The translations under genes were made by a program, and so were the position numbers. Positions 2,213 to 16,967 of a stretch of DNA of 23,592 nt are shown here, one piece after another. The DNA lies in IMG/VR virus record IMGVR_UViG_3300044701_000970, positions 1 through 23,592 of that record. One strand, given 5' to 3'. How positions within the stretch are numbered: the stretch's first letter is position 1; the number at the start of each line of letters is the position of its first letter. The DNA is from a virus. The notes beneath the pieces were generated by a model. That model was given only the letters and a program-made list of their open reading frames with translations, was not told the DNA's origin and ran no database searches.

Positions 2213-5200
2213 TTAGTACGGATAGTTGTTGACGACTTCCTGCGGATTTAGAACATCAGCGGTGCGGTTATAGCGTTTCTCTTGTTTGAAGGCACCTTTA
2301 AGCGCCTCCTGCCGCCGCTTAGCAAAGCCCTGGCTGACATCAGTCAGGCCAAGCTCCATCGTTGCTACAGCGCGGTCATGGTGCATACGAACAATCCCCA
2401 TGATGTGTTCATGGGCATAGGTCTTATCTACATCAACACCCTCTTGGCGTTGCCGTTCAGATTCAGGTTTGTCGACGTTCTTGTATTGAGGGCTATTGAA
2501 GTAGGTCAGCAGATCCTTCTTCAACTCACCATCACCTGCGCGTAACCTGACATACTCGACCACCTCTTCGTTGGTCATGTCCTGGGTGTTCAGCTTCCGC
2601 TGGTCGTTGTCAATGTCAACCCCTTCTTCTGCCAGCATCTTGTGGACAGGCTCAAAGCGGTTCTTTGACAGACGGAGGCCAAGACCAATTGGGTTGATGG
2701 TTTGTAGGGCTGAGACAAAGCCGCCAGCCGAACCCAGACCTTCCCTCGACAACGGCTTACCGGTCACTGGATCAAGCTGCTGAGGCAGGGCTGTGGTGCT
2801 ACCCAGGCCAGTGTGTTTCTTCAGATACCAGCTCCAGCTGGGCTCAATCTGAGAACGGACTTCTCGCAGGGCAGAGTCGATGTATTGACCAACCTGATTG
2901 CGCATTCCTGAATATGGAACAAGCCCACGGGCAATGTTCTCGCCAAGCTTCTTGATGTCGTTAGGACTGGAGGCATTGATCAGTTGTGCCATCGTCGAGA
3001 TCTGAGTCAGATACGACTTGTTGACCACGTTTGACATGATTGCAGGCACGATGGCTAGCCAAGCATTCTCCTGTTCACTACGTCCACCAAGGAACAGAGA
3101 TCCCATGTCGGCAAACAGACCAATCACTGTTGTTGCAGGCTCCATGCCCTGATAGTTGATCTCCAGTTCGCCTAAAGTCAGTGTGTATGGCTTGTTATGT
3201 GTCAGCCACGTATCTCGATTCTCTCCACGAAGAGGCCCTGCGCCTGTTAATGCACCTGAAGCCCCACCAATGAATGCTGATGCTCCAATGATGTAAGAGG
3301 CGGCCTCCGCTCCATCCCGCATGGCCCGATAATAATCAGACCCGTTCTTGTAGAGCTGGTCCGAATGCTTAAGTAGTGTCGACAGGCCAGGAGTCAGATT
3401 CGCGGATGCCTTCAGGATGGCAGACGGGGTCTTCACAAAGGTGATACCCAGCGTCTTCATCAAAGGGACTGACGACAGCTGGTTCAGGCGCTTGGTGAAT
3501 TCATCCGACTCACCAATGGGAGTTTGGAAAGTCAGCGTCTGTCCAAGATGCTTAGCTTCCTCATCAATGACCGTAAACCCATCATCAGAGAAGATCTTGC
3601 CAACATGGTATTCCTTCAGTTGTTCGACAAGCTCACCAAACTGCTGACTGCGCTTTCCAGTCAGAGGTGCATCCCCCATCTCAACGAGAGCATCCTCAAC
3701 CGCCCGCCGAGCAGCTACCTGCCTTGCTGCTACTACCTGGAAGAACTTATCCGTAGCCCCCATGAATGCCATCATTGGGCGCATGAACGGTGAATCAACT
3801 AGCTTCCGTACATTGACTGCCAACGCATATGTGCTTTGTTGTGCCCAGCCAAGCTCATCAGCTTCTGCCATGGCCTTAATTCTGGCCATGTTCCTCTCAA
3901 GTTCTTCATCCCAGACGCTGTATTCCTTAATGCCATCATCCATTGCCTTCCACTGTTCTTTGTAAAGGCGTCCGATCAGGCTAGTTAGCTCCTTATAGCT
4001 GTCATAGGTTGCTCCAAGGGCTGCGGTGGCCTGCATGCGGATCTTGGCATTGGCCTTTCCAGGAAGCATGGTTCCCAGATAAGCCTGAACCGGATGTCCG
4101 ACTGCCTGATAGAAGTTACCCCAGAAGTTACGCTGTTGAGTCAGGGGGCCAGACAGAATCGAATTAACGTATAGGGCATCAATATTCTTTCCATTAGACG
4201 CCAGTACTGTCTGCCATACCTTGGCATTCTTTGGGCTATCGACACTGACAGCCATGCCAGCTGCAACCCGCTCCAGGTGCTTAAACGCTGCAGGGTTACC
4301 AGCCCGGATCTCCTTCTTCAGGGCATTGAAGGTCTGGTACATCTGCTGATCCTTGGCCAGATCATCCAGATGACGAGCCTCCAGCTCCTTGAAGAGCTTC
4401 GACTTAGACTTCAGAGTGTCAGGACCATCTGCCAGGTTCTCGGCGATGTAGCCGAGCTCACGGAGCTTTCCAGATGTGACCTGCTTGTGCATGGTGCGGA
4501 GACGAAGCATTGCCCCCATCCGATCAACAAGTCGCAGGGCATCCTGTACGGCCTCTGGTGCTCCGTCCTTAGAGTTGTTGAGGACGCTGTACCCCAGGTC
4601 TTTAGCTTGACGCTGGAGCTCCTTGAGCACAAGACCAGTCGCTGCGTAGCCCTTGGTGGTCAGCATCAGGTGCTCACCATCAACAACCGTACCAATGGCA
4701 GGGTTCTTCAGGGACGCCAGTAGGTCATCATCAGTGGCATCCAACCACTCCTTGGCAAGTTCCGAGGCTGCAGCCATCTTCTCAACAGTCTGAGAAGGGG
4801 TAAACAGCACTTCACGGTCGATGTCACCAACAACCTTCTCCAGGAGCAGGAACCCCTGGGTATCGTTAGACAGGCTGTAGATGTCTGCCTCAGTCAGCGA
4901 CGCCTTACCTGGCTTGGCTGTATTGATGACACTCTCTTCATCATCAAAGGTGTCCAGCAGGCTGGTCCGAGGAACAGCAGGGACTACCTCCCCGACCTCA
5001 TAACCAGCCTCTACGGCCTCCTTACGGGTCTTGGTGGGGATGATTTCATCGGCTTGGCGTGCTGCTACTTCAGCCGCCTCAGGGGCTACTGCAGGGGCCT
5101 TGCTGCCTACCTGAGAGGGCGAGATGGTCCCCTTCCGGATACCATCGCTAAGTTCATCAACAAGCTGGCTCCACCGCGCATAGGGGGTCATCGACTTGGA

Positions 5201-14815: not shown

Positions 14816-15835
14816 TCAAGCGATGTTGCGGAAAGCACCGGCAACAGACACGCGCACAGAGCCAGCGCCCATTGCAAGCTTGCCAACAATCAGATCACCC
14901 TGGTACATGATGCTCACATCACCAGAGGTGGTCTCAACGGAGGGACCAATGGTCTCCACCACGGCAGCAGCATCCCGATGGAAGATCAGGCCACAGCTGT
15001 TGGTAAAGTCAGCAGTCGCACCGTAGTTGTTCTTCTCGTTGGTAGCATCGGTGTTCTCGATGGCGGGGCCAGTCGAGGTGCCGTACTTACCCAGGAAGGG
15101 GATGTTGTTGGACTTGTAGATCTTGATACCAGCGATCTCGTAGAGACCAGCGCCACTGTTCAGGTTACCCTGAGTGTTACCAATCTCGCGATTGAGGATA
15201 TTCGTGTCCACAGAGGAAATCAGACTGTAGTACTGCCGGGGAGACAGAACAGCCACACGACCCTCGCGAGGAGCAGAGCGCTCATCGAGAACAGCCGCAG
15301 CCTCGAAGAAGCCATCAACCAGGGCCTGAGCGTTGTACTCGTTGTTAGCACCCAGCTTCACCTGGAAGCCACCAGGCTCACCGGTAACCGGGCTGGCAGT
15401 ACCAGAGGCACGGTCCAGAACACGGAACACACGACGGTCATAATGCTCGCTCAGAGCTTGACCGATTTGACGCGAGATGGGACCACGCAGATCGTAGTGG
15501 GCAAGGACCTCATCGAGCTCATACAGGAACGCAGAGCTGATCAGCAGCTGGTCCACAGTGATGGTCGTTTCGGCCTGCGGAGGAGCACCATTAGTACCAC
15601 CGCCATTTCCGAGGATAGGCGTGCCGGGTGTATGGAACCCCGCCGTCATTTTACCCGTATGGATAAACTGGGCTTCCTTTCCGTTGCGCAGAGTGCGGCT
15701 CTGAACAAGGTCCTTCGAGATCAGGTTATTGCGGAAGCTTTCATACACTTCCCCAGTAAAGAGCTTAAGGAGAAGAGCGCGGGAATCGCCCGCCTGGTTT
15801 ACTTGGCCAGGACGGGTAAGAAGAGTGTTTGCCAT
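14816..15835 (-). CDS. Major capsid protein (T7 gp10A-like)
   Basis: The 339-residue product matches the T7 gp10A size class (345 residues) and its pattern. It has an N-terminal helix (residues 18-45, including LKLFTGEVYESFRNNLISKD), then RTLRNGKEAQFIHTGKMTAG (47-66) equivalent to the HK97-fold E-loop region. Then come TITVDQLLISSAFLYELDEV (about 89-108) and VLSPRQYYSLIS near residue 200. It forms the icosahedral shell on the scaffold. It is preceded by the only large non-coding stretch in the window and followed by a strong terminator, the arrangement expected for the most highly expressed late gene. Codon choice is biased (many GTC/ACC/CTG-type codons), which leaves a long spurious open frame on the opposite strand. 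There is no Shine-Dalgarno before the ATG at 15835 and no sign of a T7 10B-type frameshift extension. Confidence 0.96.
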   Translation of the reverse strand: MANTLLTRPGQVNQAGDSRALLLKLFTGEVYESFRNNLISKDLVQSRTLRNGKEAQFIHTGKMTAGFHTPGTPILGNGGGTNGAPPQAETTITVDQLLISSAFLYELDEVLAHYDLRGPISRQIGQALSEHYDRRVFRVLDRASGTASPVTGEPGGFQVKLGANNEYNAQALVDGFFEAAAVLDERSAPREGRVAVLSPRQYYSLISSVDTNILNREIGNTQGNLNSGAGLYEIAGIKIYKSNNIPFLGKYGTSTGPAIENTDATNEKNNYGATADFTNSCGLIFHRDAAAVVETIGPSVETTSGDVSIMYQGDLIVGKLAMGAGSVRVSVAGAFRNIA

Positions 15836-16100
15836 TGTCGTTATTTAAGGAAATTGGTGTTTGCTTTAATAGCGCCAGTTCCTATTTAAGATCGATCTAT
15901 TGTTCTAAGAGTATTCAATTGGTAATTACCGACGTGGGGTATCCTCTCGGGCCCACTGCAGCGGGCACGGTTTTTAACGTGGTCCTAGTGCGTCCACAAG
16001 GCATAGTCAGGGAATCGAACCCCAATGAATCACCAGATCTATGCAGATGGCCTAAGCGTGATATGCCTCATCAGGACATAACAGGGGCTTAGGCTCTGTC
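15836..16100. other. 265-bp non-coding spacer between scaffold and capsid genes
   Basis: This is the only gene-free stretch over 100 bp. It contains a structured element (15999-16094, listed separately). It also has an imperfect 16-bp palindrome with a PstI-like core (GCCCACTGCAGCGGGC, about 15951-15966), a perfect 10-bp palindrome GGTAATTACC at 15921-15930, and another, AGATCGATCT, at 15889-15898. T7 has promoters and a leader upstream of gene 10 in the same place, so a late phage-RNA-polymerase promoter is expected here. I could not identify a consensus, and no convincing sigma-70 -35/-10 pair was seen on the minus strand. Confidence 0.7.
15999..16094 (-). other. Structured RNA / tRNA-like element in capsid leader
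   Basis: Read on the minus strand, AGGCATA (16068-16062) and TATGCCT (16005-15999) form a perfect 7-bp acceptor-like stem enclosing 56 bases. Just inside the 3' side is a T-arm-like hairpin, TGGGG-TTCGATT-CCCTG, with the invariant GTTCGAT-C pattern. The total is 70 nt, but no proper D-arm or 5+7 anticodon arm can be drawn and the T-arm is two bases too far from the acceptor end, so it is not a normal tRNA. Upstream, GCCTAAGC (16094-16087) pairs perfectly with GCTTAGGC (16057-16050), enclosing TGAT-GAGGCAT-ATCA. The loop of that inner hairpin contains the acceptor-like strand, so the two folds compete or form a pseudoknot. It may be a degenerate tRNA, a processing site or a leader regulator. 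Confidence 0.5.
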
Positions 16101-16967
16101 TTACAGGAGGTTGCCGCTACGAGCGAGCTTCTCCTGCACATCAATTCGATAGGCAGGATCGTCTTTGTATCGAGGATCGGCGATGGCTCGTGCCAGCTCT
16201 GCTTGGCTGCGGAACCCAGGCTCGGGAGCAGGTGCTCTCGATCCCGTATAGCGTTGTCCCTCGTAGCCAGCCTCAGAGCTGTAGCGGGCTTTCAGACCCT
16301 GTGCAGCCCAATACATCGCCCCTGCGTCACCACCGTTCATAACAGCGTCGTAGGTGGCAATCTCATCTGGAGTTAAGTTATCTGCTGCCCATCCCAGCAT
16401 CTCTGAGTAGGCCTGCTGACCTCCCACAGACTGTGTGATGTAGTCGGCCTGCTCCTTGGTAACTGCTCCTTGTACGGCCTGCTCTCGCTGGCTCTTGACG
16501 TATTCAGCCCAGGTTTCCACCAGGGTGCGACTGTCAAGCTCTGCCAGCTTGTCAATGGTCTCCTTGCTCAGACCGCCGTTCTCAAATTCAGAAGAGGCTT
16601 CTGTAAGGGCTCTGAGGGCGTCTGTGAGCTCCTCATCTACCTCCTCGTCCTCTCCCTCATCTGAAGCCTCTTCCTGGGACTCCTCGGCGTCTTGCGCGGC
16701 CTCCTCAGGTTCTTGGTTATTACCTTTCTCGCCTAGCTTCTTCTGGAGCTCAAGGTAGGCCTTCTCCAATTCCTCTGCTGAGCGGTATTTGCCTGCAAAG
16801 CGGGCATCATTCTCGTCGATTTCACTTGCCTTACGGAACCGCTCTTGAGCGGCTTCTTCCTGGCTCTCAACGAGTTTGGAGCCTACTTCAAGAGCACGGC
16901 GTTCTGCCGCTTCCTGCTCAGTGAGGTCGGCTCCATCCTGCGGATCAAAAGTGTTTACGATTGCCAT
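16101..16967 (-). CDS. Capsid assembly (scaffolding) protein, T7 gp9-like
   Basis: The 288-residue protein (T7 gp9 is 307) is very acidic and helical. The block FAGKYRSAEELEKAYLELQK (residues 57-76) is the typical podovirus scaffold N-terminal motif. Residues 85-118 are almost entirely Glu/Asp/Ala/Ser. The C-terminus has the usual DPRYKDDPAYRIDVQEKLAR helix (about 264-283), which in this family contacts the capsid protein. It directs procapsid assembly and then leaves. Its ATG overlaps the stop of the 75-residue gene (TAATG), suggesting coupled translation, and it directly precedes the structured leader of the capsid gene. Confidence 0.93.
   Translation of the reverse strand: MAIVNTFDPQDGADLTEQEAAERRALEVGSKLVESQEEAAQERFRKASEIDENDARFAGKYRSAEELEKAYLELQKKLGEKGNNQEPEEAAQDAEESQEEASDEGEDEEVDEELTDALRALTEASSEFENGGLSKETIDKLAELDSRTLVETWAEYVKSQREQAVQGAVTKEQADYITQSVGGQQAYSEMLGWAADNLTPDEIATYDAVMNGGDAGAMYWAAQGLKARYSSEAGYEGQRYTGSRAPAPEPGFRSQAELARAIADPRYKDDPAYRIDVQEKLARSGNLL

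Follow-up and report, generated by a model that had tools for sequence, protein, structure and literature searches.

A tRNA-like element in an exchangeable slot before the capsid gene of T7-like cyanophages, a candidate processing site for the capsid mRNA

The spacer between the scaffold and capsid genes of a T7-like cyanophage carries a minimal tRNA-like element (the mini-tRNA) that, judging from sequence comparisons, is rather likely to be a processing site at which host RNase Z, perhaps with RNase P as well, makes the 5′ end of the capsid mRNA. The DNA analyzed here (the window) is 23,592 nt long and represents part of the phage genome (IMG/VR record IMGVR_UViG_3300044701_000970); its capsid protein is 91% identical to the counterpart in Synechococcus phage S-CBP2, the nearest named relative. 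Both structures in the spacer, their compensatory conservation, the boundary at which neighboring sequences are swapped, the 13-14 nt spacing to that boundary and the existence of further copies are strongly supported by computation.

Results

Two separable RNA elements lie between the scaffold and capsid genes

A preliminary description of this stretch read the spacer as one tRNA-like, possibly pseudoknotted element. All of the strings that it named are where it placed them, including AGGCATA (16068-16062, minus strand) and TATGCCT (16005-15999, minus strand), which span 70 nt end to end, and the GCCTAAGC/GCTTAGGC pair (16094-16087/16057-16050, minus strand). Their assembly into a single fold did not survive comparison with relatives; instead, the spacer comprises two neighboring RNA elements, one at 16100-16046 (element A) and one at 16044-16000 (the mini-tRNA) (Table 1). 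The separability of these modules, the exchangeable nature of the slot and the presence of similar elements in early intergenic regions had been overlooked. DNA searches with the 5′ part of the spacer (approximately 16100-16046) returned matches directly upstream of tRNA-Ala genes in the cyanomyoviruses S-CREM1 and S-SZBM1, and searches with the 3′ part returned matches in the capsid leaders of S-CBP2 and S-TIP37. A pattern scan with the core of the 5′ part found 24 viral stretches bearing the same hairpin; because this core recurs in several contexts, the modules appear to move independently.

Table 1. Coordinates of the features discussed (window positions, or positions in the locus named)
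Feature	Position	Strand	Basis or remark
Scaffold (head assembly) gene	16101..16967	-	Open reading frame; PHROG head assembly, 9.7e-59; upstream of both elements
Element A, structured leader hairpin	16046..16100	-	About 55 nt; usual place is before cyanomyovirus tRNA genes
Element A outer stem, 5′ strand GCCTAAGC	16087..16094	-	Covariation
Element A inner stem, 5′ strand TATG-T-CC	16074..16080	-	Bulged U at 16076; covariation
Element A inner stem, 3′ strand GGCATA	16062..16067	-	The formerly proposed "acceptor" 5′ strand minus its first A; covariation, folding
Element A outer stem, 3′ strand GCTTAGGC	16050..16057	-	Covariation
Mini-tRNA (tRNA-like element)	16000..16044	-	Discriminator-like base at 16000; covariation and locus searches
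Acceptor stem, 5′ strand GCATAG	16039..16044	-	Covariation; pairing probability 0.66-0.89
D-loop-like linker CTGGTG	16031..16036	-	Conserved among mini-tRNAs
T-stem, 5′ strand TTGGGG	16020..16025	-	Covariation set; weak in single-sequence folding
T-loop TTCGATT	16013..16019	-	Sequence inspection
T-stem, 3′ strand CCCTGA	16007..16012	-	Covariation set
Acceptor stem, 3′ strand CTATGC	16001..16006	-	Covariation; folding
Predicted 3′ processing site and occupant swap boundary	16000/15999	-	Leader comparison, spacing counts
Capsid leader	15836..15999	-	5′ start TTGTGG; P1 hairpin 15997-15994/15982-15979 by folding; same sequence behind different slot occupants
GGCC-stem-GGATACC hairpin, capsid leader	15934..15956	-	Conserved; present in nearly all leaders inspected (by eye)
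Major capsid gene	14816..15835	-	Open reading frame; PHROG major head protein, 2.2e-75
Intergenic tRNA-like elements outside the capsid slot	L507 2699-2746; L508 986-1033, 1441-1486; L509 23725-23770; L510 603-647, 975-1044; L511 1245-1324; L513 587-633, 929-975, 1313-1371		
Glutamine-II riboswitch RF01704	L004 2324-2377; L069 863-914; L073 770-853; L079 835-888; L154 142-193		

A pseudoknot in which AGGCATA/TATGCCT crosses GCCTAAGC/GCTTAGGC to give one tRNA-like fold is extremely improbable. Both helices can be drawn in the window, and AGGCATA/TATGCCT is kept in leader L031, whose acceptor stem has one C-A mismatch; the helix is broken in L008, however, where the 3′ strand reads TATGCGT, and is missing from relatives in which the mini-tRNA stands without element A, which lack AGGCATA and retain their own acceptor partner. 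AGGCATA is, moreover, accounted for within element A, where GGCATA forms the 3′ strand of the inner stem (TATG-U-CC/GG-CATA). As an acceptor stem, AGGCATA/TATGCCT is marginal at best: shuffling the 75 nt upstream yields an equal or better partner 4% of the time, and its pairing probability in the window is 0.00 versus 0.66-0.89 for GCATAG/CTATGC, under a folding method that cannot model pseudoknots. GCATAG, previously ranked second among the partners of the acceptor 3′ strand, is the one upheld by compensatory change in relatives, and with CTATGC it forms a nested stem; the pseudoknot is not conserved. The 8-bp stem is likewise real, but belongs to element A rather than to a tRNA-like pseudoknot.

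Compensatory change maintains the mini-tRNA acceptor stem

The mini-tRNA joins its acceptor stem to its T-stem by a 13-nt link, which includes CTGGTG and so resembles the GG of a D-loop; it has no anticodon arm. A conserved acceptor/T-arm helix thus stands between two reading frames, and the acceptor/T-arm stack ends one base before the predicted 3′ processing site, 13 nt after the T-loop. The tRNA-likeness first ascribed to the hairpin with the TTCGATT loop holds up, as T-arm and acceptor occur together far above chance: the loci searched (5.5 Mb counting both strands) gave 33 mini-tRNA matches and shuffled sequence none, and 25 of the 28 distinct matches fall in capsid leaders.

Compensatory change in the acceptor stem, for which the preliminary description had proposed a check, is found across relatives both by strand-swap permutation and by alignment of fixed-length strings. 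Among the TGG-linker leaders (26 distinct), the leader's own acceptor partner scored 13.6, a value reached in 0 of 20,000 permutations, versus 7.4 for swapped strands; leaders entered this set only with an own score of 8 or more, which inflates the observed mean somewhat, and the permutation counts are not strict probabilities since the sequences are related. Alignment of 22 distinct relatives showed that 99.0% of acceptor cells are paired versus 69.7% upon shuffling, with a covariation score of 0.89 versus 0.26. All five acceptor pairs in this alignment exhibit changes on both sides, and shifting the partner by a single column lowers the score to 0.11-0.21. Fixed-length strings were used because MAFFT misaligned the free acceptor sequences; the strings join non-contiguous pieces, and three rows (L197, L008 and L031) were entered by hand from the sequence. 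A per-leader shuffle test, in which most single leaders were not significant, is weak because any helix within 75 nt competes, and was replaced by restricted searches together with the strand-swap permutations.

The T-stem of the window contains G-U pairs, and nearest-neighbor folding favors another inner helix, leaving the T-arm a probability of 0.07-0.13 in a model that does not take in tertiary contacts. Inspection of S-CBP2 revealed the T-arm and the spacing, and no local acceptor partner. The tRNA-finder and Infernal check suggested at the outset came back negative: ARAGORN called no canonical tRNA gene in the window, the best Rfam match (to tRNA-Sec) reached 14 bits versus a gathering score of 47, neither program called a tmRNA there, and neither recognized either element. 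No known Rfam family matched the elements of the window or of its relatives at the gathering threshold; only tRNAs and glutamine-II riboswitches were called, elsewhere.

Different elements exchange at a boundary matching a tRNA 3′ end

In other phages, the slot before the capsid gene is occupied by a full tRNA gene, a tRNA-like element with a UGCAA loop, or a hairpin containing ACCUCAG. When 155 capsid leaders were classified by regular expression, a TTC T-loop was assigned to 49, a TGC (UGCAA-type) loop to 43 and the ACCUCAGAGUCGGA hairpin to 47, leaving 16 unclassified; these classes are approximate in that a few leaders (such as L036 and L203) were placed through the wrong hairpin and several of the 16 also have T-arms. 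Real tRNA genes in the slot include an annotated tRNA-Gly in NATL1A-7 and a complete tRNA-Trp in L025. The UGCAA class, too, has its own acceptor partner (11.9 versus 8.9 for swapped strands; 0 of 20,000 permutations as high).

The ACCUCAG hairpin has a nearly invariant 14-nt loop, occupies the same slot in about one third of leaders (among them L069, L073, L074, L075, L077, L030, L047 and L048) and is absent from Rfam. It is almost confined to this position, with 114 of 120 viral matches lying 80-400 nt upstream of a T7-like capsid gene; matches in a scan of cellular genomes lacked the flanking stem, save for one Synechococcus single-cell record in which a T7-like capsid gene lies downstream.

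Comparison of leaders with different occupants shows that they can be identical after a TTG and unrelated before it. Across 119 different-class pairs with at least 90% identity over the 30 nt following this junction, identity over the preceding 40 nt averaged 37%, a few of these pairs including regex-unclassified leaders that are in fact alike; 130 same-class control pairs averaged 78% over the same 40 nt. L030 and L031, both close to the window, share an identical first 30 nt from TTGTGG, preceded by the ACCUCAG hairpin in the one and by a mini-tRNA in the other. The position of the junction is also regular: the distance from T-loop to TTG is 13 nt in 36 and 14 nt in 20 of 73 distinct T-arm leaders (56/73), and most of the remainder have TTCG, TTAAGG, ATGAAGG or a similar variant at about that position; the window has the 13-nt spacing (CCCTGACTATGC plus C). 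Because five T-stem, seven acceptor and one discriminator nucleotides follow the loop, a canonical tRNA also ends 13 nt after its T-loop, which places the boundary at the RNase Z position. In most examples that were folded, the sequence after the junction forms a stem beginning 2-3 nt from the new 5′ end.

Neither class of T-arm hairpin was found in the leaders of roseophage CRP-125 and Desulfovibrio phage ProddE, the two non-cyanobacterial relatives compared, and the system may be limited to cyanophages. Something similar to the 5′-terminal and GGCC-stem-GGATACC hairpins, which nearly all cyanopodovirus capsid leaders carry, is seen in CRP-125 (L080). Within the clade of the window, the loop of the first leader hairpin may pair (GCAC/GTGC) with nucleotides that follow GTTAAAAAC; relatives seem to compensate for changes in this pairing. 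In several cyanopodoviruses, small genes between psbA and capsid are preceded by glutamine-II riboswitches (Table 1).

Element A is associated with cyanomyovirus tRNA genes

Approximately 100 distinct copies of element A were collected from cyanophages (L001, L002, L005-L028, L082-L084, L335-L447 and the window), mostly with a T4-late-like promoter box before them and a tRNA gene after. An ARAGORN tRNA lies within 250 nt in 77 of 100 distinct copies, and in 55 it starts no more than 8 nt after the element; a TATAWA box precedes 60 of the 100, nearly always 10-13 nt upstream, a spacing that fits the expectation for T4-like late promoters. The variable pairs of the outer stem are 100% paired versus 73% when strands are permuted, and across 48 distinct copies the inner stem shows A-U to G-C co-variation while keeping its bulged U. 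No Rfam family matched element A, either at the gathering threshold or at E values up to 10. To judge from its location, element A may lead phage tRNA transcripts at their 5′ end. The complete tRNA-Trp of L025 comes directly after a copy of element A and before a leader like capsid leaders L008 and L013; this order suggests that the arrangement in the window is a captured tRNA cassette in origin, with element A probably acquired together with the tRNA as one cassette.

Inspection of element A for a hammerhead ribozyme, which its CUGAUGA might recall, showed that the GAAA partner is absent. An alternative, pseudoknotted pairing within the element (AYAGAG with CYCUGU) was tabulated and shows little variation among copies. 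In cyanomyoviruses, copies also stand before small genes, and in many contigs (L009, L019, L027, L336, L349 and others) the element is followed by GTAGGAAGTGCAA..CCTCTC..CTGGT..GTCCGCACATAGAGATCCCTCCTAC, which looks like another structured RNA. An abiF RNA motif (Rfam RF03085) lies between element A and a tRNA or mini-tRNA in L002 (2562-2598) and was recognized by eye in L033, L034, L022 and L408; no abiF gene was seen adjoining these copies. AbiF is a toxin neutralized by an RNA bearing this motif (PMC12373285), and the phage copies could be antitoxin mimics. Cyanomyovirus tRNA clusters further contain tRNA-shaped elements with acceptor, D-like and T arms and without an ordinary anticodon arm (L083 1347-1420; by eye also in L006, L084, L002 and L359), one of which ARAGORN calls tRNA-???.

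Related elements recur elsewhere in cyanopodovirus genomes

A search for a T-arm with an acceptor stem in seven complete genomes and the window returned 21 elements, as compared to about 3 expected from shuffles and 2-7 under four scrambled-loop control rules. All 21 are on the coding strand, and by annotation the T-loop is intergenic in 16, the window included; intergenic DNA makes up about 7% of S-SBP1 and about 9% of S-TIP37 by a hand count from annotation. The five elements within genes are probably chance occurrences. Early-region or other non-capsid sites are represented in six of the seven genomes (Syn5, S-TIP37, NATL1A-7, P-SSP7, S-CBP2 and S-SBP1). The elements outside the capsid slot are mostly early, often have a second short arm and are soon followed by a TTG.

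Discussion

Taken with the covariation, the swap boundary and the spacing, an RNase P/RNase Z-type processing site for the capsid mRNA is the best supported of the several options that the preliminary description offered. From this pattern we infer that cleavage occurs, which enzyme cuts and that the message is thereby protected. A minimal tRNA mimic would act as a processing signal in a transcript running from scaffold to capsid. The features that tRNA-end enzymes read are retained, namely the T-loop, a D-loop-like linker containing GG, and a stack of acceptor and T-arm that measures about 12 bp; those needed for translation, the anticodon arm and an encoded CCA, have been dropped. The discriminator-like base would be the last before the cut by host RNase Z (16000|15999), and RNase P may assist by cutting at 16045|16044. 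The predicted product is a capsid mRNA that starts with UUGUGG and bears a UU-GUGG...CCAC hairpin 2 nt from its 5′ end, a structure expected to keep RNase E and RNase J off the monophosphorylated end. Hairpins at the 5′ terminus generally protect bacterial mRNA.

Genes for RNase P, RNase Z and RNase J are present in cyanobacteria (PMC10989914), and the tRNA elbow is a recognition feature for both RNase P and RNase Z (PMC4810234). A cut by RNase P on the 5′ side is less certain because CCA, which the E. coli enzyme prefers (PMC5723415), is absent, and because the stop codon of the upstream frame would be lost with such cleavage in some relatives (P60 and the L203-L210 group, by inspection). Counting against processing as a whole are the lack of a local acceptor partner in S-CBP2, the weakly predicted T-arm of the window and the ACCUCAG hairpin, which is carried by about one third of leaders and is not obviously tRNA-like. 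A broader proposal, toward which we lean a little less than halfway, is that T7-like cyanophages punctuate their transcripts with tRNA mimics dispersed through the early region and before the capsid gene, host tRNA-maturation enzymes taking over the role of RNase III in coliphage T7, and that the mimics of the capsid slot are exchanged with real tRNAs and with the unrelated ACCUCAG hairpin, which would have the same role.

Several other explanations account for part of these data. One is translational control, whereby the structure would insulate or couple translation of the capsid gene and of the frame before it, be that scaffold or a small gene, and set their ratio with no need for cleavage. 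In 14 of 26 mini-tRNA leaders, an open frame of 30 or more codons that comes in from upstream has its stop codon inside the 5′ half of the element, and by inspection the acceptor 5′ strand appears inside the scaffold gene in P60 and the L203-L210 group. The scaffold stop of the window is upstream of both elements, however, and translational control leaves unexplained the tRNA-like T-loop, the real tRNAs in the slot, the tRNA-length spacing and a sharp swap boundary more than 150 nt from the capsid start codon; we regard it as unlikely as the main function, while a switch for the capsid to scaffold ratio may be a secondary role of the mini-tRNA. About equally unlikely is a role for the mimic in stabilizing the preceding message at its 3′ end, or in titrating or sensing enzymes that act on tRNA (CCA-adding, modification or tRNA-cutting defense enzymes), with the capsid mRNA start being incidental. 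The acceptor/T-arm half is indeed what CCA-adding and other elbow-reading enzymes recognize (PMC4810234), but the conserved, exchangeable boundary is shared by a hairpin that is not a tRNA, and the conserved side is the capsid leader, a better fit to a 5′-end function.

A role in transcription is less probable again. Every slot occupant is a G+C-rich hairpin and TTTT follows 13 of 47 ACCUCAG hairpins, as might be expected of a terminator or pause site between scaffold and capsid; mini-tRNAs, in contrast, are followed not by a T run but by N-TTG in most relatives (CTTGTGG in the window), and a terminator would need neither a T-loop nor a paired acceptor at a fixed distance, making this reading improbable. 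Marginally less credible still is a promoter, in which the TTG of the boundary would be the transcription start and the upstream hairpins parts of a promoter for a phage RNA polymerase. The sharp conserved boundary could be a +1 site, and coliphage T7 has its strong phi10 promoter before the capsid gene. Unrelated occupants with RNA-type covariation are nevertheless hard to square with a single polymerase, and the published Syn5 promoter (PMC3950665) was not found in the Syn5 capsid leader, its occurrences in that genome being at 4929 and 44797. A tRNA origin of the element is plausible, given that element A accompanies tRNA cassettes in cyanomyoviruses and a complete tRNA-Trp stands in one capsid-type leader. 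That the element is a decayed tRNA or attachment-site remnant, two of the options first listed for it, and has no function is nonetheless hard to credit: the spacing is conserved, and in many relatives compensatory changes preserve the acceptor stem. As to attachment, the element lies in the structural block and the integrase in the early block of annotated relatives, and the acceptor sequence varies freely from one relative to the next.

The mini-tRNA, the ACCUCAG hairpin and element A represent candidate RNA families absent from Rfam, and a full-text search of largely open-access literature turned up no account of tRNA-like elements in the capsid leaders of phages. If the proposed cleavage is true, a DNA bacteriophage in an ocean-abundant virus group would use tRNA mimicry as mRNA punctuation. 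Cleavage would also explain the 5′ end of a capsid message that has no known Syn5-type promoter nearby, would tie cyanomyovirus tRNA cassettes to gene regulation in podoviruses, and would offer compact natural RNA-processing sites for use in cyanobacteria.

Processing at tRNA-shaped sequences has precedents of several kinds. In mitochondrial tRNA punctuation, RNase P and RNase Z excise tRNAs and thereby release mRNAs. In the arrangement described here, reading frames are likewise separated by an element of tRNA shape, and the 3′ end of that element would be the start of the next message; the arrangement differs in belonging to a phage-host system, in consisting mostly of mimics without an anticodon arm and in that excision is predicted. 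Coliphage T7 relies on RNase III processing sites and on its phi10 leader. T7 and the cyanophages, which have one genome plan in common, would both place processing signals between genes, with RNase III stems and a promoter in the former and tRNA mimics in the latter. The mascRNA of MALAT1 is a tRNA-like element processed by RNase P and RNase Z and, like the mini-tRNA, a non-translational RNA that would direct end formation of another transcript; mascRNA, however, acts at the 3′ end of a nuclear RNA and keeps the clover leaf, whereas the mini-tRNA would make the 5′ end of a phage mRNA. The use of RNase Z in that system is documented (PMC5723415).

Among phages, RNase P substrates include the T4 gene 32 mRNA, phage M3 RNA and the P1/P7 C4 antisense RNA (PMC11143913). 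These too are phage RNAs processed by a host tRNA enzyme, as we propose here, but they are single cases and, unlike the slot occupants, do not make up an exchangeable family before a capsid gene. Mimicry of tRNA is also known from the tRNA-like structures of RNA viruses (PMC5723415), which share with the mini-tRNA the acceptor/T-arm half; those structures belong to RNA genomes and often have a pseudoknot at the 3′ end, whereas the mini-tRNA belongs to the transcript of a DNA phage and is not pseudoknotted. The mini-tRNA also resembles the canonical tRNA genes of cyanophages themselves, such as the tRNA-Gly of NATL1A-7: these share with it the T-loop and the 13 nt to the 3′ end, and element A stands before such genes in cyanomyoviruses as well, but the mini-tRNA differs from them in having no anticodon arm and in going uncalled by ARAGORN and Rfam.
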